From Flavivirga jejuensis (lineage in GTDB: Bacteria > Bacteroidota > Bacteroidia > Flavobacteriales > Flavobacteriaceae), in assembly GCF_030540765.1 (NCBI RefSeq), contig NZ_JAUOEL010000002.1, positions 496,001-560,000 on the forward strand: DNA of 64,000 nt, given 5' to 3'. The notes under the pieces were generated by a model. It saw nothing but the letters and a program-made list of their open reading frames with translations. It was not told the DNA's origin and did no database searches. Position 1 is the stretch's first letter. Every line of letters starts with the position of its first letter. Made by a program: the position numbers and the translations under genes. Positions 16,142 through 60,085 of this stretch are shown one piece after another.

Positions 16142-17230
16142 TTGCAACCAAACCGTTTGTATTTTATCGATGCTGTTAGAGCATTTGCCATCTTAATGAT
16201 GCTCCAAGGGCATTTTATCGACACGTTAATAGACCCCATTTTTAGAGACCCCAACAATATAATTTATAATATATGGTCTTATTTTAGGGGTATTACTGCC
16301 CCTGTTTTTTTTACCATTTCTGGGTTGGTTTTCGCCTACCTCCTATTACGTGCGCATGCCAAAGGTGATGATCAACCACGAATAAAAAAAGGATTTTTCA
16401 GAGGTCTATTACTTATTGGCATTGGCTACAGTTTACGTATTAATTTAGTGAGTTGGTTTTGTGGCTATTTTAGTTCTTATTTTTTTGTGATTGATGTATT
16501 ACAATGCATCGGCTTTTCACTTATTATTTTGGTTAGTTTACACATTTTATTTAAACATTTTAGCTATCTATTTTCTATTATTCTATTTTCAATAGGATGT
16601 TTATGTTTTGTTGCCGAACCTTTATATAGAGATTTAATTATAGATAATTTACCGCTTCCCATTGCTAATTATATGACCAAGGCTAATGGTTCTATCTTTA
16701 CAATTTTACCTTGGTTTGGGTATTCTGCTTTCGGCGCTTTTATCTCTACAGTATTTTTTAGGCATGCCCACCGCAATCGTTTTAAACCATATACCATTAT
16801 GACTTTTTTCGTAACTGGATATTTACTTATATACCATTCCACATGGACATTGTTAGAACTACACTATATTACAGATATTGAGCTATTAAAACAAAGTGCC
16901 AATTATAATTATCTGTTTATACGTCTGGGTAATGTGCTAATACTTTTTGGTCTCTTTTATGCTTTGGAACGTTTTTTAAAACAATCCATAATTGCAAGAA
17001 TAGGAGAAAAAACCTTATCTATTTATGTAATCCATTTTATAATACTTTTTGGAAGTTATACAAGTTACGGATTGAAACGATTTTTAAAGCTATCTTTAAA
17101 TCCTACTGAAGCTATTTTTGGTGCCATACTATTTGTTTTAGTAGTTTGCTTTATATCATTTCATTATGCAAAAACCAATACATTTGTATATAATATGGTC
17201 CGTAGATTAATAAACCGATTTAAAAATTAA
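16142..17230 (+). CDS. DUF1624-type membrane acyltransferase (HGSNAT-like)
   Basis: An integral membrane protein of 362 residues with about ten helices, beginning RLYFIDAVRAFAILMMLQGHFIDTL, the pattern of the heparan-alpha-glucosaminide N-acetyltransferase-like family that moves acyl groups onto envelope glycans. The frame opens with TTG at 16142; the next in-frame ATG falls inside helix 1, so TTG is the likely start. A TfoX-like gene follows after 5 bases. The alternative is the acyltransferase-3 superfamily, which shares this topology. The acceptor is unknown. Confidence 0.8.
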   Translation: MQPNRLYFIDAVRAFAILMMLQGHFIDTLIDPIFRDPNNIIYNIWSYFRGITAPVFFTISGLVFAYLLLRAHAKGDDQPRIKKGFFRGLLLIGIGYSLRINLVSWFCGYFSSYFFVIDVLQCIGFSLIILVSLHILFKHFSYLFSIILFSIGCLCFVAEPLYRDLIIDNLPLPIANYMTKANGSIFTILPWFGYSAFGAFISTVFFRHAHRNRFKPYTIMTFFVTGYLLIYHSTWTLLELHYITDIELLKQSANYNYLFIRLGNVLILFGLFYALERFLKQSIIARIGEKTLSIYVIHFIILFGSYTSYGLKRFLKLSLNPTEAIFGAILFVLVVCFISFHYAKTNTFVYNMVRRLINRFKN

Positions 17231-50468: not shown

Positions 50469-51953
50469 ATGAAAAAAAAATACTTATTAATCGTTATTTC
50501 CTTTCTAACAGGAACAATCCAATTATTGGATGCACAAACATTGTCTCATAATTTTAATAATGGAAGCCTTGGGCCTTTTTATGAGTGCTCTACACAAAGC
50601 CCAAATTACTCACAAGTTGTGAATAGCAGAGTTAAAACCCATTGGCAAGAGTCTTCTTACAATGGATCAAGATCAACAAAAGGCGCTGAATTCTGTGCTA
50701 ATAATTGGGATACAACCAAAGAAGGCTGGATGGGATTTACTATGAATTTAGGTCCCGATTATCCAACAAACAAAACTGCTGGAATCGCTCAAATTTTTCA
50801 GTTTTACAGCTCTACATTCTGGTCATGGGCAGCATTGATAAATATCATGAATGGCGATCTGCAGATTACTCATAGATCTAATGGTGGAACAAGTGGTAAC
50901 ACCAACGCTGTTATATATTCCAATTTTCCAAAAAACACAAATATGGATATCATAATACATTTTGTACTATCTGCTTCAAATGCTGGATTAATTCAAATTT
51001 GGGTTAATGGAGTAAGCAGGTACTATGCCAATAATATCAATTTTGGTTATGCCGAAAGTTGGAGTAATGATGTACAGTCTAGCCAATATTCATATGTCGA
51101 TTTAAAATTGGGACAGTATAATTACGATGATGCCAACTATACAAACAACGAGACAAGAACGGTATATTATGATAATGTGACTTGGTACGATGGTTCGAAT
51201 GGTTATTCTATAGTAGATCCATCTGGTGGTGGTAGCAGTGCAAACTTCCGATTGGTAAAACGAAATGCAACAGGATTTGCCATGGATGGCGGTAGTGGGG
51301 GATCTAATGGACAGAGTATAGAATTGTATAACAACATAAATCATGCAAACCTTACCTGGACAGAAATTAACAGAGGTGGAGGCTATTATTCTTATCAAAA
51401 ATTAAACACCAATTATTGCATTGATGGAGGAAATGGTGGAGCTAATGGCCAGGATGTGTACCTATGGACTTGTAGTGATAACAATCAAAACCAACATTGG
51501 TTGAAAATAAACGCTGGTAATGGTCATTATAGATTGCAAAAACGAAACGCCTCTGGTTATTCTATTGATGGCGGCAACGGAGGAACATCCAACCAAAATG
51601 TATATTTGTGGTCTTCTAGCAGTACCACTCAAAACCAGCAGTGGCGGTTTGATGGTGTAAGTACAGCAAAATCTGCAGAACAAAAAACTGAAGCAGAAGA
51701 GCTAACAGAAAACTCAAACGCATTTAATGTATATCCAAATCCTGTAAATAATGAGCTTAATATTAAGCTTAATGACTACTACGATGAAGAGACATTTATA
51801 GCACTATACTCTATTCATGGACAAAAAATAACTCAAGTTAAACCTAGTAATCATGAAGTTAAGCTTGATTTATCAAGATTACATAGTGGAGTTTATATTT
51901 TAATGGTAAATAATAAATCTGAAAGTTTAACCAAAAAGATTGTAAAACTATAA
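50469..51953 (+). CDS. T9SS-exported polysaccharide-lyase-like protein with ricin-type lectin domain
   Basis: A secreted 494-residue protein. Signal peptide about 1-22; a beta-jelly-roll about 25-255 of the heparin-lyase-I/PL20 type (GWMGFTMNLGPDYP; YVDLKLGQYNYDD; VYYDNVTWYDG); a ricin B-like carbohydrate-binding domain about 264-396 with repeated IDGG-GG-NGQ-VYLW and QNQ-W segments; and a C-terminal T9SS sorting domain (VYPNPVNNELNIKLN ... SGVYILMVNNK). It likely binds and cleaves an acidic glycan, but the exact lyase family is uncertain. The locus ends in a mobile element. Confidence 0.88.
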   Translation: MKKKYLLIVISFLTGTIQLLDAQTLSHNFNNGSLGPFYECSTQSPNYSQVVNSRVKTHWQESSYNGSRSTKGAEFCANNWDTTKEGWMGFTMNLGPDYPTNKTAGIAQIFQFYSSTFWSWAALINIMNGDLQITHRSNGGTSGNTNAVIYSNFPKNTNMDIIIHFVLSASNAGLIQIWVNGVSRYYANNINFGYAESWSNDVQSSQYSYVDLKLGQYNYDDANYTNNETRTVYYDNVTWYDGSNGYSIVDPSGGGSSANFRLVKRNATGFAMDGGSGGSNGQSIELYNNINHANLTWTEINRGGGYYSYQKLNTNYCIDGGNGGANGQDVYLWTCSDNNQNQHWLKINAGNGHYRLQKRNASGYSIDGGNGGTSNQNVYLWSSSSTTQNQQWRFDGVSTAKSAEQKTEAEELTENSNAFNVYPNPVNNELNIKLNDYYDEETFIALYSIHGQKITQVKPSNHEVKLDLSRLHSGVYILMVNNKSESLTKKIVKL

Positions 51954-52470: not shown

Positions 52471-53550
52471 ATGAAAATTTTAAAAATTGCGTTATTACTA
52501 ACCATTATTTCTTGCTTAACTTATTCATGTAGTAAGGACGATGATTCTACCAATGAAAATTTAGCCAATCAACAAAATGAACTTGAAGAAGCTAACATTC
52601 CTTTAGAAGATTTAAATTCAGGTATCTCTATTGAAGGAGCTACAAAAAACACAGGTACACCGCCGCAACCTACTGGTGATGTAAATATTGAAATAAGTTC
52701 TGATAAAGTTGAAGCTTTTCAAAAAGCTGGGTTTAACCTAAAGTTTTCTACAACAGAAACCGACATTGCTGGGGCTTACTTATTATTTAAAGATTCTGAT
52801 AATAATACTGCTTCTGATTATTTTGATATTCCAGTTTCAGAGTTAACCACATATAATAAATCTGGTGATACTAAGGGTAATAAATCTTCAAAAAGGAATC
52901 TATTATTTAAGTCTAATAACAAACTGGAAGATGGTGAGTATGAAATCGATGTAAATTTTGGGGATTCTTTTCCTCCAGGAAAATTTTGTGCCGATTTGTG
53001 TATTTATGATCAAGAAAATAACATTAGTCAAATCGTTACTGTTTGTGTAGAAGTAGAAGCATGGGGTGGTAATGCATCTATTGTTGGAGAATGGCTTCTA
53101 GAAGAAAATAGTTTTGATAATAAACTTACGCTTGATTGTGAAAATGAAGAAACTATTGAAGTTGATCATAGTCAGATTATTAAAGAAGAGTTCATATTTA
53201 ATGTTGACAGTAATGGTGACTTTTATATAACTAGTTATGAAGAATATAAATTTTTAGATTACGAAGCTTCATCAAATAATTGTAGTGCTACTTATTCTGA
53301 TGATATTGAAAAATATAGTGACAAAGAAACTGGTAAATGGGCTTATAATGAAACTAATAACACTTTAACATTAGTATCATTTAAATATGAAGACTTTATC
53401 GAACCTCAATATAGTGGAGATTATCCTAATGGGTATTTATTATATGAAGGAGACAAAGTAGAAGTTATTGGTGGAAAACTAGTAATTACTGAAACCTACA
53501 CAGATGGGGATGAAACTTACACTTACATATATACTTTCGTAAGAAAATAA
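52471..53550 (+). CDS. Hypothetical lipoprotein with lipocalin-like C-terminal domain
   Basis: A 359-residue surface or periplasmic lipoprotein: signal with lipobox TYSC (Cys about 20), an acidic linker SKDDDSTNENL, a middle beta domain about 65-200, and a C-terminal domain starting IVGEWLLEENSFDN that resembles lipocalin-like domains of Bacteroidota lipoproteins. Function unknown. It has a good terminator after it, so it is separate from the protease cluster. Confidence 0.8.
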   Translation: MKILKIALLLTIISCLTYSCSKDDDSTNENLANQQNELEEANIPLEDLNSGISIEGATKNTGTPPQPTGDVNIEISSDKVEAFQKAGFNLKFSTTETDIAGAYLLFKDSDNNTASDYFDIPVSELTTYNKSGDTKGNKSSKRNLLFKSNNKLEDGEYEIDVNFGDSFPPGKFCADLCIYDQENNISQIVTVCVEVEAWGGNASIVGEWLLEENSFDNKLTLDCENEETIEVDHSQIIKEEFIFNVDSNGDFYITSYEEYKFLDYEASSNNCSATYSDDIEKYSDKETGKWAYNETNNTLTLVSFKYEDFIEPQYSGDYPNGYLLYEGDKVEVIGGKLVITETYTDGDETYTYIYTFVRK

Positions 53551-53987: not shown

Positions 53988-54003
53988 TACCCATAATTGG
54001 GTA
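53988..54003. promoter_or_regulatory. Candidate NarL-type operator, site 1
   Basis: TACCCAT-AA-TTGGGTA is an inverted pair of heptamers in the 7-2-7 spacing used by NarL/FixJ regulators; the left arm fits the heptamer consensus TACYYMT. The next base string ATTGGGTATGTTTT recurs exactly at site 2. It is 58 bases before the first gene of the protease/kinase cluster, so the cluster's own response regulator is the natural ligand. Confidence 0.6.
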
Positions 54004-54061
54004 TGTTTTTACGTGAAATTATATGGCACATTTGCAGTATTAATTAACTAATCCAACTTTT

Positions 54062-54397
54062 ATGAAAAAACTAGTCTCTCCTTTTACGATGTTTTTATTT
54101 GGTATTATAGTTTTTGCTACTATCATGATAATAACACGTAAATTGAATCTCAATTTTGAAAATGATCTTCTCTTTTGGTTTTATTGTGTTTTAATAGCTC
54201 TCGTTATTACTACCATGAGTATATCTGTTTACAGTATGATAAGCCAAAACCGTAAATCTGGTAAAAATCCTTTTACTCAAATTAATACCCAAGGTATTGC
54301 TATTGCTGGCACTATGCCTCTTTTGGAAAAAGTATCTACCATTAATACTTCTGGTGCTATTGCTGTGTTTGTTTTAGTTTATTTTTTAATCCATTAG
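54062..54397 (+). CDS. Small three-helix membrane protein
   Basis: A 111-residue protein with hydrophobic segments at about 10-28, 36-62 and 95-110 and a hydrophilic region between (SQNRKSGKNPFTQINTQGIAIAG). No known family. It is the first gene of the cluster leading to a trypsin-like protease (8-base gap), and could be its membrane anchor, regulator or target. Confidence 0.7.
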   Translation: MKKLVSPFTMFLFGIIVFATIMIITRKLNLNFENDLLFWFYCVLIALVITTMSISVYSMISQNRKSGKNPFTQINTQGIAIAGTMPLLEKVSTINTSGAIAVFVLVYFLIH

Positions 54398-54405
54398 TAT
54401 AAAAT

Positions 54406-55380
54406 ATGTTAGAAAATGAAGCCAACATTCAATTAGAAAAACTTGGTCAAGCCATAGTTTCAATCAAAGGAGTTAATTATGCTGCCGTTGTAAACCAAGA
54501 TAATAACATAAATAACTTTCACATTGAAATTGGATATGATTCAGGGACATTTCCATCTAGCCTTTTATTACAATATTCTGAGAGAAAATTTGAACATAGA
54601 CCGATAGATATTAAAATTCCTAAAGGTCTCCCCATTGATTATATACCAAAAGCAATCTCATATGAAAATTTAAATAATTATTTGGATTTTCCTATTAGTC
54701 TAAGAGAAATGAAAAGCCCTTTTTCTTTTGATAAAAACCCTTATCGTGGTATAGCTTCTGAAGGTTCTGGTTCAAACTTTGGGACACTAGGGGCAATTGT
54801 AAAGTTAAAAAATGATAATAACTTTTATATTTTATCAAATTGCCATGTATTAATGAATGAATCTAGTAAAATTGGTCATCCAATTAAAAATGAAAGGAAA
54901 GAAACTATAGCAACATTACATTGGGCTGTTAGTAACGAATATTATGACATTGCTTTAGCAAAAGTAACGGACATGAGTCTACTTCAGAAAAAATTTAAAT
55001 GCTATGACTTCAACAAAAAAATTGCTAAACCAATAAAAATAGGTCAAATGGTCACTAAATGTGGTTATACCTCAGGGTCTATCAATGACGGAACTATTGT
55101 GTCTAAAAATGCATTTGTAAAGATTGGAGAAAATAATAAGATTTTTAAAAATCAAATTTTAGTCTCTAAAATTTCTAGAGGAGGTGATTCTGGTTCGACA
55201 TTGGTAGACAAAACTGGAAGAAATTCTTCAAAAGATGTAATAGGTCTTGTTTTTGCTTCAGATAAGTATGACTTTACTATTTGTAATCATCTACATTATC
55301 TCTTTTCTAATGAAATAGATTGCTATAATTATAGTGATGATATTATTATGCCTAAAATAAATTTCGAATCTTTTTATTAA
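54406..55380 (+). CDS. Non-secreted trypsin-like serine protease
   Basis: A 324-residue protein without a signal peptide. Residues 1-115 are an unassigned N-terminal domain; residues about 125-324 have a chymotrypsin fold opened by GTLGAIVKLKNDNNFYILSNCHVLM. The triad is complete: H147 (NCHVL), D181 (YYDIALAKV), S262 in GGDSGST (260-264). The preceding segment SGSNFGTLG is characteristic of cytosolic NAL1-like proteases. In bacteria, such cytosolic trypsins are often found in conflict or signalling loci. Neighbours are the small membrane protein, an unknown protein and a two-component system. Confidence 0.88.
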   Translation: MLENEANIQLEKLGQAIVSIKGVNYAAVVNQDNNINNFHIEIGYDSGTFPSSLLLQYSERKFEHRPIDIKIPKGLPIDYIPKAISYENLNNYLDFPISLREMKSPFSFDKNPYRGIASEGSGSNFGTLGAIVKLKNDNNFYILSNCHVLMNESSKIGHPIKNERKETIATLHWAVSNEYYDIALAKVTDMSLLQKKFKCYDFNKKIAKPIKIGQMVTKCGYTSGSINDGTIVSKNAFVKIGENNKIFKNQILVSKISRGGDSGSTLVDKTGRNSSKDVIGLVFASDKYDFTICNHLHYLFSNEIDCYNYSDDIIMPKINFESFY

Positions 55381-55398
55381 TCTTAAAAACACATAACT

Positions 55399-55869
55399 AT
55401 GGGTATTCTAAATTACCAAAAATTAGCTTTACAAGAACCAAAATTTCCATCTACTAATGCATATTCATATATAGATGGAGATTTTGGATTCAAAATTACT
55501 TTTAATTGGAAAAATTCCTCAGAATTTGTAAATGAAATACAATACGAAATTATAAATTCTGCTCCTCAATATCATCTTTACGAATTTGATAATGCTAGAG
55601 TTTGCTGTCAAACCCTAAATGGAACTAAAAATTTATATTTTTTGATGATGAATTTTAAAAACGTCGAAACTGTAAATGAAGTTTCTGGGTATAAAATAGG
55701 TACATTTACTCCTCAATGTAATCTTAAAATGGAAATAGGGAGTGTAATTTTTATAAAGTTTAATACTTACACACCAAATGAAATTCCTTACGACAGTTGT
55801 AGCATACCTATTTTTGATGAAAACCCAAAAACAAAAGACGGAAGCATAATAGTAAGTGTAGGTCCTTGA
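55399..55869 (+). CDS. Hypothetical protein linked to the protease
   Basis: A 156-residue cytosolic-type protein, beta-rich (FKITFNWKNSSEFVNEIQYEI; MEIGSVIFIKFN), with no recognised family. It begins 18 bases after the protease and its stop overlaps the histidine kinase start (TTGA). It may be a substrate, inhibitor or sensor of the protease. Confidence 0.72.
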   Translation: MGILNYQKLALQEPKFPSTNAYSYIDGDFGFKITFNWKNSSEFVNEIQYEIINSAPQYHLYEFDNARVCCQTLNGTKNLYFLMMNFKNVETVNEVSGYKIGTFTPQCNLKMEIGSVIFIKFNTYTPNEIPYDSCSIPIFDENPKTKDGSIIVSVGP

Positions 55870-57638
55870 ATAAAAAAAAACGCCATATAAGCACATATCT
55901 TCTACCAGTAATATTTTGTATTACTGGTTTTTGCGTTTCTCAAAACACCAATTTTGAAAATGTATTAGATGCCTATAATTCATCTAACAAGCAAGATATA
56001 CTAATAGAATTAAAAAAAATTGATACTACTAAAATCAATAAATATGACAAAGCTACTTGGCTATATTATTTCGCAGATTATAATTCAATTATAGATAATC
56101 ATCATCTAGCCTATGTCTATATTTTAAAATCAAAAAAACTATTTAAAGAGTTAAAACAATATAGTGATGTAAAAGATTGCAACGTTTTATTATTAGGCAT
56201 TCTAAACCATCAAAATAATTTAGAAATTGACAAAAAAGCAATTATTTCAGAGTTAAAAAGTTACGCTTTAAAAAAGAAGGACACTTTGGCATTAGCTAAG
56301 GTCTATCAACAAATAGCTATTCAATATTTAGACAATAATGATGGAAATGAAACTTTAAAATATTTTAACCTCATTACTAATTTATATAAGTTACGTAAAG
56401 ATACTTTAGAGATAGCAAAATGCAATATGAATATTGGAACTGTTTATAATACTGTTTTTAATAACCAAGATTCAGCATTATACTATACAAAAAAAGCTGT
56501 ACCCTATTTAAAAAAATATAAGGATTATCAAAATTTAGCTTATAACTATAACAACCAAGCTCAACAATATAAATTATTAAAAAACTGTATAGAAGCTGAA
56601 AAATATTTTTTAAAAGCAGATTCGATACCACTCAAAGGTAATATCTCAAAAAGTAAAGTTATATTTTATGAAAACATGTCAAGTTTGTACTTAGAATGTA
56701 AAGAATATAAAAAGGCAGCACTTCATTTTGACAAGTTAATTAAACTAAAAGACAGCATCAACGACACAAAACAAAACATAGCCATATCAAAAATAAAAGA
56801 ACAATACGACAACGAAAAAGTCCGTGCAAATAGCCTAGAAATTGAATCAAAACGAAAACAAAATTTCAATTTATTAATTGGGGCATTTGCTTTTATACTC
56901 TTTGGAGGCACCACTGCCTTTCTCATCCAAAAAAACACCAAACGTAAACAAAAACTAGCCGAACAAGAAAAAGAAATTGAAAAACAAAAAGTAGAAACAT
57001 TATTAAAAGACCAAGAGCTAATAAGTATTGATGCCATGATTGAAGGCCAAGAAAAAGAACGCCAACGCATTGCCAACGACTTACATGATGATTTAGGCGG
57101 ACTTATGGCAACCGTCAAACTTCATTTTAATGTTCTTAAAGACAAGAAAACTCCCGAATTATTTGATAAAACGAATACTTTACTAGATGAAGCCTACCAA
57201 AAAGTACGCTCGATAGCACATGCCAAAAACTCAGGTGTTATAGCAAAACAAGGGCTCTTAAAAGCCATACAAAACATGGCTGATAAAGTATCTGTTTCAA
57301 ATAAAATTATAATTAATGTAATTGATCATGATTTAGAAGACCGTTTAGAAAACAGTTTAGAGCTTACTATTTTTAGAGTCATTCAGGAATTAGTCACTAA
57401 TATTATTAAACATGCTGAGGCTACAGAAGCTATCATTCATTTAACCAACCATGAAGACAGCTTAAATATTATGATAGAAGATAATGGTAAAGGGTTTAAT
57501 CCGAGTCAGGTAACAACCAAAAATAAAGGCATGGGAATTAGCAGTATTGATAAACGAGTTGAACATTTAAATGGTACTATGACTATAGAATCAGAAATTA
57601 ATAAAGGAACCACCATAATAATAGATATTCCAATATGA
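55866..57638 (+). CDS. TPR sensor histidine kinase (HisKA_3, NarL-system type)
   Basis: A 590-residue membrane sensor. Signal segment about 1-22; an extracytoplasmic TPR array about 25-320; a membrane helix about 334-353 (FNLLIGAFAFILFGGTTAFLI); a coiled coil; the phosphoacceptor H407 in ERQRIANDLHDDLGG; and an HATPase domain with N-box ELVTNIIKHAEA, MIEDNGKGF and GMGISSIDKRV. The TTG start overlaps the stop of the previous gene by four bases (TTGA) and the response regulator overlaps its own end in the same way (ATGA), so the whole cluster is translationally linked. Confidence 0.94.
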   Translation: MNKKKRHISTYLLPVIFCITGFCVSQNTNFENVLDAYNSSNKQDILIELKKIDTTKINKYDKATWLYYFADYNSIIDNHHLAYVYILKSKKLFKELKQYSDVKDCNVLLLGILNHQNNLEIDKKAIISELKSYALKKKDTLALAKVYQQIAIQYLDNNDGNETLKYFNLITNLYKLRKDTLEIAKCNMNIGTVYNTVFNNQDSALYYTKKAVPYLKKYKDYQNLAYNYNNQAQQYKLLKNCIEAEKYFLKADSIPLKGNISKSKVIFYENMSSLYLECKEYKKAALHFDKLIKLKDSINDTKQNIAISKIKEQYDNEKVRANSLEIESKRKQNFNLLIGAFAFILFGGTTAFLIQKNTKRKQKLAEQEKEIEKQKVETLLKDQELISIDAMIEGQEKERQRIANDLHDDLGGLMATVKLHFNVLKDKKTPELFDKTNTLLDEAYQKVRSIAHAKNSGVIAKQGLLKAIQNMADKVSVSNKIIINVIDHDLEDRLENSLELTIFRVIQELVTNIIKHAEATEAIIHLTNHEDSLNIMIEDNGKGFNPSQVTTKNKGMGISSIDKRVEHLNGTMTIESEINKGTTIIIDIPI

Positions 57639-58261
57639 TACGACTTGCTATAGCAGAAGACCACCAATCGTTAATAGATGGTATTAAATTACTACTAGAA
57701 TATGAAGACGATATTACCATTATAGGAACAGCAAATGACGGCGTTGCATTACTAGAAATAGTAGAGCGCAAACAACCAAACGTTATATTAACAGATATTA
57801 GAATGCCAAAAATGGATGGTATTGAACTCACAAAACAAATCAAAAAAAAGTATCCTAGTATAAATATATTGGCATTTACTATGTTCGAGCAAATCGAAGC
57901 CATCCAACGAATGATAGATGCTGGTGCATCTGGCTATATTTTAAAAAACTCCTCCTTAAAAGAGGTACATAATGCTATTATAGCTGTTTCAAAAGGAGAA
58001 ACGTATTTTGATGCCAATATTAATACTAATGTTTTAAACTCAAAATCAGATATTAAAACAAAAGGGGTTTTAACAAAACGTCAAATAGAAATTCTTGGAC
58101 TTATTGCCCAAGGAAAAACGTCTCGAGAAATTGCCGATTTACTTTTTATTGGGGTTCATACTGTAGATACACACCGCAAAAACATGGTGCGTATTCTAGG
58201 CCTTAAGGGTAAAGGCGAATTGATGCGCTATGCACTAGATAAAAAGTATACGTTTACCTAG
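57635..58261 (+). CDS. NarL/FixJ-family response regulator
   Basis: A 208-residue regulator. The receiver has D54 as phosphoacceptor (VILTDIRMPKMDG), conserved acids in AIAEDHQ and the K in ILKNSS; the LuxR-type HTH is about 145-205 (LTKRQIEILGLIAQGKTSREIADLLFIGVHTVDTHRKNM). Cognate to the kinase before it (4-base overlap). The end of its own coding region overlaps a NarL-type inverted site that could drive the next gene, and a matching site lies before the cluster, so autoregulation is likely. Confidence 0.95.
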   Translation: MIRLAIAEDHQSLIDGIKLLLEYEDDITIIGTANDGVALLEIVERKQPNVILTDIRMPKMDGIELTKQIKKKYPSINILAFTMFEQIEAIQRMIDAGASGYILKNSSLKEVHNAIIAVSKGETYFDANINTNVLNSKSDIKTKGVLTKRQIEILGLIAQGKTSREIADLLFIGVHTVDTHRKNMVRILGLKGKGELMRYALDKKYTFT

Positions 58262-58270
58262 CATTGGGTA
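58255..58270. promoter_or_regulatory. Candidate NarL-type operator, site 2
   Basis: TACCTAG-CA-TTGGGTA, 7-2-7 spaced. It overlaps the stop codon of the response regulator and is 53 bases before the next gene, almost the same distance as site 1. ATTGGGTATGTTTT is identical at both sites. Confidence 0.6.
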
Positions 58271-58323
58271 TGTTTTCATAAAACTATGATTTATAGATTT
58301 AAAAACTATAAATTAAGAACATT

Positions 58324-59695: not shown

Positions 59696-60085
59696 ATGAC
59701 AGCATTTCAAGAAATAATAAAAACGATTAACAATGTAAAAAGAAAAGGCAACCTACTATCCAAAAAAGACATTCTTTCTGTATTAAAAGCAACCAAACAA
59801 ATAACAAAACATAAAGAGTTAATAAATTCTCTAATTTTCTTTTTTACGACATTAGATTCCAAAGCTTTAAATAAGATCGATATATTGTCTAAAAGAGAAT
59901 TAGAAGTTTTACAATACATAGGTCATGGAAAAAGTTCTATAAATATTGCAAAAAAGCTGGGCTTAAGCATTTCTACTATAGAAACACACCGAAAAAATAT
60001 TAGAAAAAAATTAGAACTTGTTGGAAAAGGAACACTTATCCAATATGCAATTTTAAATAATTTAAGAATGTTAAACTCTGAATAA
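59696..60085 (+). CDS. Receiver-less LuxR-type DNA-binding protein
   Basis: A 129-residue protein with a C-terminal LuxR/GerE HTH (about 62-125: LSKRELEVLQYIGHGKSSINIAKKLGLSISTIETHRKNI) closely similar to that of the response regulator 57635-58261. The N-terminal 55 residues are a short helical region and not a receiver domain. It may share or compete for the same operators, possibly as a modulator. Located 43 bases after the exported protein gene, so probably cotranscribed. Confidence 0.9.
   Translation: MTAFQEIIKTINNVKRKGNLLSKKDILSVLKATKQITKHKELINSLIFFFTTLDSKALNKIDILSKRELEVLQYIGHGKSSINIAKKLGLSISTIETHRKNIRKKLELVGKGTLIQYAILNNLRMLNSE

Follow-up and report, generated by a model that had tools for sequence, protein, structure and literature searches.

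Paired NarL-type dyads at a protease and two-component cluster of Flavivirga jejuensis, probably operators of a self-activated regulon with exchangeable proteases

Among described systems, the operators of Escherichia coli NarL come closest to the elements considered here. According to PMC7419079, the 7-2-7 site from which NarL acts at ogt is centred at −44.5; at yeaR-yoaG it uses a single 7-2-7 site, located just upstream of the −35 element. For flavobacteria, the accessible part of a start-site map of Flavobacterium psychrophilum places the −7 box TAnnTTTG of sigma-A promoters at −12 to −5 (PMC9723704), and the term LuxR has 0 occurrences in its main text as far as this was available. A third point of reference are protease-bearing conflict systems, for which the consulted part of PMC7159879 describes trypsin/Trypco and caspase pairings and names no histidine kinase among the effectors of vWA systems. 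Here we analyze two 16-bp dyads within a 64,000-nucleotide stretch of Flavivirga jejuensis (contig NZ_JAUOEL010000002.1, positions 496,001 to 560,000; hereafter the window), located at a cluster that encodes a trypsin-like protease, a histidine kinase (HK) and a response regulator (RR). Taken together, the comparative data argue that the cluster probably constitutes a NarL-like, self-activated regulon with swappable proteases, whose RR would read both dyads.

Like the E. coli NarL operators, the dyads exhibit a 16-bp inverted design with TACC-type half-sites and lie just upstream of a promoter, where a response regulator with a GerE helix-turn-helix (HTH) domain would act as activator, as PMC7419079 reports for NarL. 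In contrast to NarL sites, the window-type sites show no constraint on the innermost heptamer base, favour a central TA and accompany TAnnTTTG promoters of the flavobacterial kind; the targets observed comprise proteases and exported proteins. The RR itself is of the NarL/FixJ type, with a receiver (PF00072, 4.8e-28) and a GerE/LuxR HTH domain (PF00196, 1.3e-14), but is not NarL, reaching 101.3 bits with the equivalog model NF007935 against a cut-off of 250. In the NCBIfam scan no listed family reached its cut-off; the list extends to the best 25 matches, out of 116 for the RR and out of 35 for the small LuxR protein encoded further downstream. With the F. psychrophilum sigma-A promoters, as far as the map was accessible, the window shares the −7 box, whereas it differs by a predicted palindromic activator site at fixed distance and a T-rich −33 stretch. 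Likewise, the trypsin-like and caspase proteases and the small companion gene beside the protease resemble the conflict systems in the consulted part of PMC7159879; the core of the window system, in contrast, is an HK with an HTH RR. No NTPase hub was noticed in the loci, where no search aimed at NTPase hubs was made.

Both dyads, each followed by TGTTTT, lie exactly where the preliminary description had placed them (Table 1), and its gene coordinates for the cluster as well as its distances of 58 and 53 bases to the ATGs at 54062 and 58324 were correct. The 14-base string it had reported as common to both sites, ATTGGGTATGTTTT, occurs exactly twice in the window; we dropped it as a separate element, as it is made up of the right half-site and the adjoining conserved T-rich box. 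Operator 1 is a perfect 6-4-6 dyad, whereas operator 2, complementary at five of seven heptamer positions by reading, covers the end and the stop codon of the RR gene (58255–58261). The first site heads the proposed protease–HK–RR unit, with the qualification that its first gene encodes a 111-aa membrane protein and the protease comes second; the order continues with a 156-aa companion, the HK and the RR, followed by a 442-aa exported protein and a 129-aa LuxR HTH protein. Within the window, the pattern TACC-N5-TTGGGTA with up to one mismatch yielded six matches where 1.1 were expected, one dyad being counted on both strands. None of the shuffles reached this number, although the pattern was chosen post hoc, after both sites were known. 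A third exact match, at 16707, was discarded as an operator for want of a −7 box in phase. The post hoc choice and this unphased match would fit a pair of chance look-alikes in an AT-rich genome, which we nevertheless hold to be next to inconceivable, as it is contradicted by the comparative evidence, in particular conservation in orthologues. It is this comparative evidence that is strong.

We searched the RR against genome contigs and retained the best 80 loci, from which 30 RR-orthologue loci with 53–80% identity were analyzed (L007–L035, L037), leaving out L036 (39%) and more distant ones. Four of the 30 (L017, L019, L027, L035) are short at one end, and the set overlaps with the genomes used below (L011 and G095, for example, hold the same sites). 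TACC-N8-GGTA was present in 54 copies, distributed over 25 of the 30 loci, most of them either ahead of the operon or following the RR. Spacers of 0–7 and 9–20 yielded 2–9 copies each, so N8 alone is enriched, and the highest count among 95 other half-sites of equal G+C was 15. A copy phased with a −7-type box was found at 24 of the 30 loci, in 22 cases within 5 kb upstream of the RR and in 11 right behind it. This conservation upstream of orthologues, the absence of which the preliminary description had set beforehand as grounds for refutation, sustains the self-controlled regulon it had predicted: a site stands upstream of the RR's own operon at 22 loci and, at the operon head and in phase, in all eight RR-bearing genomes among the twelve of the genus, window genome included. 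At L028 the site precedes another kinase gene. The second site behind the RR is an exact phased copy in four of these eight (window, L125, L126, L127) and a variant at the same phase in the other four, with both arms altered jointly (TCCC...GGGA) in L124 and L129 and a one-base change in a single arm in L128 and L130. Both window sites are thus in all likelihood operators.

The promoters were read against TAnnTTTG instead of an E. coli-type promoter scan, because relatives of the organism use TAnnTTTG promoters. Among 56 sites (54 at the orthologue loci plus the two of the window), the TTTG of the −7 box starts 26 nt (7 sites) or 27 nt (25 sites) after the dyad in 32 cases, and no other distance exceeds five sites. 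Counting both orientations and allowing TTTA, 45 of 108 oriented copies were phased, compared to 20 of 662 for the 95 other half-sites pooled. The rigid spacing places the element beside a sigma-A promoter; as the −7 box is put at −12 to −5, the dyad centre would fall at −43.5 (spacing 27) or −42.5 (spacing 26), where an adjacent activator would sit. The predicted start sites are therefore compatible with activation, a point on which the preliminary description could have failed. Since autoregulation by repressors is common and the site lies near the promoter, the dyad could instead block the polymerase, with the HK relieving an RR that represses. However, a fixed spacing around −43, upstream of rather than over the −33 and −7 boxes, a −33 region that is rich in T but lacks a clear TTG, and the paralogous systems L131 and L149 fit an activator better, leaving repression improbable. 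In these two paralogous systems a perfect dyad between divergent genes is flanked on either side by TTTG or TTTA, 26/27 nt away, and such two-sided −7-like boxes fit activation.

To describe the symmetry we aligned 85 phased sites, some of which had been fetched with a pattern fixing several positions, including Ts of the T-box, so that the evidence is limited to pairs 4/11 (position 11 restricted to A/G in the pattern-fetched rows) and 6/9 (free). Pair 4/11 was complementary in 55 of 85 sites against a null mean of 38.6 (standard deviation 4.0), whereas the innermost heptamer pair 6/9, with 18 of 85 against 21.8, was not above chance. The central TA is preferred, and T occupies offset 16 in 80 and offset 18 in 75 of the 85 sites, some rows having been selected for these Ts. 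The 7-2-7 design initially proposed therefore stands as a spacing, with two inverted TACC-type half-sites over 16 bp, whereas the seventh base falls outside the symmetry. The full NarL heptamer is TACYYMT. The left arm of operator 1 fits this heptamer, and each of the three remaining arms deviates at the seventh base. Operator bases also appear to vary with the recognition helix of the RR, a relation confounded by ancestry: where this helix is of the AKT(T) class, the most upstream phased site reads TACCT...AGGTA at five of six loci, compared to three of 33 others (p = 5e-4). The RRs with the helix AKTTVDTHRKN are recorded under Tenacibaculum and Polaribacter, and two of the three non-AKT loci with this site are the paralogues L131 and L149 (TACCTA-N4-TAGGTA).

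Two proteins of the cluster carry the recognition helix THRKN, the RR and the small LuxR protein, which lacks a receiver (59696–60085). The latter could be the main reader of the sites or compete with the RR: its helix STIETHRKN is close to the HTVDTHRKN of the RR, its gene lies in the unit behind site 2, and it is present in five of the eight RR-bearing genomes of the genus as well as at L158 and L170 among the matches listed. Against this, it was not found in L125, L126 and L127, which all have both sites, and it was the best match of no open reading frame in the listed parts (1.5–9.5 kb) of 31 orthologue loci, although 25 of 30 of these loci carry the dyad. We give a reader of this kind little credence and prefer the RR because of the three congeners that keep both sites; any need for the small protein is likewise unsupported. 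The RR is thus the best candidate reader, presumably acting as an activator.

From the sites at RR loci we derived a strict composite pattern of 47 bases, which with up to one mismatch yielded 45 matches in 29 of 149 genomes of the family, compared to four for the reversed control. An RR orthologue was detected in 34 of the 149 genomes, each with an E-value of 4.9e-60 or better and no further match up to 1e-50. Site and RR occurred together in 21 genomes, the RR only in 13 and the site only in 8, where the Fisher p of 9e-11 overstates the evidence, as related species are not independent. By eye, 18 of the 45 matches lie within 6 kb of the RR, 18 elsewhere in RR-bearing genomes and nine in genomes without a full RR match. 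Look-alikes within genes (L093/L094, L103, L120) were treated as chance.

Allowing at most two mismatches, the strict pattern matched 36 times in the genus and its reversed control seven times; 32 of the 36 fall in RR-bearing genomes, 15 at the RR locus and 17 distal, and judging by the control some of the distal ones may be chance. At seven of the 17 distal sites a peptidase gene is among the first two genes behind the site (Table 1). If 0.8% or 2% of two-gene stretches are assumed to hold one, the probability of this by chance is 4e-11 or 2e-8, respectively; the base rates in the 12 genomes are 53 subtilase and 45 Trypsin_2 matches. Going by the listed coordinates, such a site accompanies five of the 40 subtilase matches found in RR-bearing genomes and none of the 13 in the four remaining genomes. 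Another subtilisin (L204) lies behind a looser site. At the other ten distal sites no peptidase was found among the genes scanned, some genes behind the G005, G008 and G010 C8 matches and the two L131 sites lying outside the scan. For the caspase–subtilisin protein L196, the amino-terminal piece (scanned as L194) matches a caspase domain at 3.4e-10 and the PADLOC caspase model fits the whole protein, and a Pfam scan of the whole protein listed subtilase only, not caspase. Together, these data suggest that the regulon extends beyond the cluster to peptidase genes elsewhere.

Several observations weigh against this interpretation. Six of the 30 orthologue loci (L016, L023, L024, L029, L030, L035) have no phased copy near the RR, and the promoter of operator 2 carries TTTA instead of TTTG. 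A loose composite, TACC-N8-GGTA-N26/27-TTTG, was not enriched over the reversed pattern in the twelve genomes of the genus (43 matches against 57) nor, with TTTR, in the window genome (10 against 12); a dyad pattern gave six genome-wide matches against four. Sequence alone therefore does not make a single distal match trustworthy, and it is the strict pattern that carries the distal claims. The loose matches stand out by location, at the RR locus. The strict pattern was itself derived from RR loci, some in the genomes searched, so nearness to the RR is partly built in. Furthermore, the 13 RR-only genomes are 13 of 34 RR-bearing ones, and in eight of the 29 genomes with a strict match no RR orthologue was detected, among them G122, where a short contig holds fragments of RR and HK. 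Strict matches also occur in two of the four RR-less congeners, three in G003, one of which falls inside an ftsA-like gene by reading, and one in G006; other LuxR-type proteins must therefore read similar DNA. The peptidase enrichment was noticed first and then counted, with a partly assumed base rate, and the link was seen in the genus only: among ten genes scanned, a catalytic peptidase domain was found only in L155 from a congener and in none of nine from other family members. Finally, shared ancestry alone could account for the link between helix and operator.

Matches in RR-less genomes, some beside other LuxR genes (such a gene lies near the site at L142, L167 and L178), the THRKN helix common to paralogues and the lack of genome-wide enrichment of the loose composite would all be expected if the composite were a general flavobacterial promoter type with several LuxR-HTH readers, the RR being one of many, and no discrete regulon. 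We regard this as rather unlikely, since the strict form strongly co-occurs with the RR orthologue and lies within 6 kb of it at the frequency given above. At one of the RR-less sites, G003 C7:441217 (L180, L200), the composite is closely like one in G010 and precedes a DUF4231 protein. A gene for a ParE/RelE-like toxin, by reading only, lies upstream of the operator at L196 (5418–5729) and L200 (5616–5927), thus in two congeners with different downstream genes, as at a gene-swapping site.

For the self-activated regulon, we infer the following course. The HK, perhaps sensing via its amino-terminal part together with companion and protease, would phosphorylate the RR, a dimer of which would bind TACC(Y)A-N4-T(R)GGTA centred around −43, directly upstream of the −33 region of the sigma-A promoter, and recruit RNA polymerase. 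The RR would thereby activate its own operon (membrane protein, protease, companion, HK and RR), the next unit (exported protein and small LuxR) and distal genes, in the genus often those of peptidases. More tentatively, and as a possibility rather than an expectation, the RR might govern, as a master switch, a largely cytoplasmic network of inducible proteases across Flavobacteriaceae. A single operator code would then control exchangeable peptidases of trypsin, papain, subtilisin, caspase and M12B type along with exported proteins, giving an inducible proteolytic response, possibly immune-like or to envelope stress, with the operon's protease part of its own sensing. The NarL/FixJ operator as such is a known kind of element; promoter context and peptidase regulon appear to be new as far as the open-access literature searched shows, in which no paper describing a NarL-type operator of Bacteroidota was found by title or abstract start. 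Operators of NarL-type regulators seem little charted in this phylum, and the short composite pattern would predict targets genome-wide as well as start sites and would connect caspase-, subtilisin- and trypsin-like genes with a two-component system.

Table 1 Features of the cluster in the window and peptidase genes behind distal strict sites.
Feature	Position	Strand	Remarks
Operator 1, 16-bp dyad TACCCATAATTGGGTA	53988..54003	+	window sequence; kept in orthologues
T-rich box TGTTTT adjoining operator 1	54004..54009	+	putative −33 region
−7 box of promoter 1, CACATTTG	54027..54034	+	consensus TAnnTTTG; TTTG 27 nt after dyad
Predicted transcription start 1	54039	+	from −12/−5 placement of the F. 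psychrophilum −7 box
Small membrane protein, 111 aa	54062..54397	+	operon gene 1
Trypsin-like protease, 324 aa	54406..55380	+	operon gene 2; Trypsin_2 5.7e-07, 30.8 bits, cut-off 27.6
Companion protein, 156 aa	55399..55869	+	Pfam scan: no family
Histidine kinase	55866..57638	+	HisKA_3, HATPase_c; TPR below cut-off
NarL/FixJ-type response regulator, proposed reader of both operators	57635..58261	+	Response_reg 4.8e-28, GerE 1.3e-14
Operator 2, 16-bp dyad TACCTAGCATTGGGTA	58255..58270	+	window sequence; overlaps RR stop codon
T-rich box TGTTTT adjoining operator 2	58271..58276	+	
−7 box of promoter 2, TAGATTTA	58294..58301	+	TTTA 27 nt after dyad
Predicted transcription start 2	58306	+	from F. 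psychrophilum −7 box placement
Exported protein, 442 aa	58324..59652	+	signal peptide by reading
Receiver-less LuxR HTH protein, 129 aa	59696..60085	+	GerE 7.8e-17
Distal subtilisins L139, L143, L155			
Distal caspase–subtilisin protein L196	2401–4998 (G010 C4)		N-terminal caspase, C-terminal subtilase
Distal M12B metallopeptidase L199			scanned as L193
Distal trypsin-like L140			23.1 bits, below Pfam cut-off 27.6
Distal trypsin-like L198			285 bp behind site

The genes of the operon vary among relatives. Four of seven congeners (L124, L128, L129, L130) encode a relative of the 111-aa membrane protein behind the operator. The 324-aa protease has no evident signal peptide by reading, and its slot holds a papain-like protease in L008 and L022 (21.7 and 20.7 bits, cut-off 19), a weak assignment in which no single stretch passes alone; likewise, a papain-like protease takes its place in L170 with a weak match of 17.3 bits, below the cut-off. 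In further cases no protease was seen where the trypsin-like gene would stand. The HK carries the motif ERQRIANDLHDDLGG at residue 398, and a 66% identical relative of the exported protein is encoded at the same place in the congener L127. A PADLOC scan of ten proteins gave single-protein matches in three, the window protease (RT-Protease_XI, 2.6e-05), the caspase (5.1e-09) and a subtilase (1.1e-15), and none in the other seven, with no clear defence system among the ten. Directly upstream of the HK, a fast-evolving companion family with SQ-YGTF...NYKG was observed in L008, L022, L170, L011, L020 and others, whose scanned members gave no Pfam match, and the companion of the window is of a second type with a GSI(L)VG-like carboxy-terminal tail. 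Near the cluster, the window encodes a secreted ricin-B lectin protein with a type IX sorting tail (50469–51953) and a predicted lipoprotein of 359 aa by reading (52471–53550) without a match in the Pfam scan, relatives of which lie upstream of the operon in six of the seven other RR-bearing congeners, L127 being the exception.

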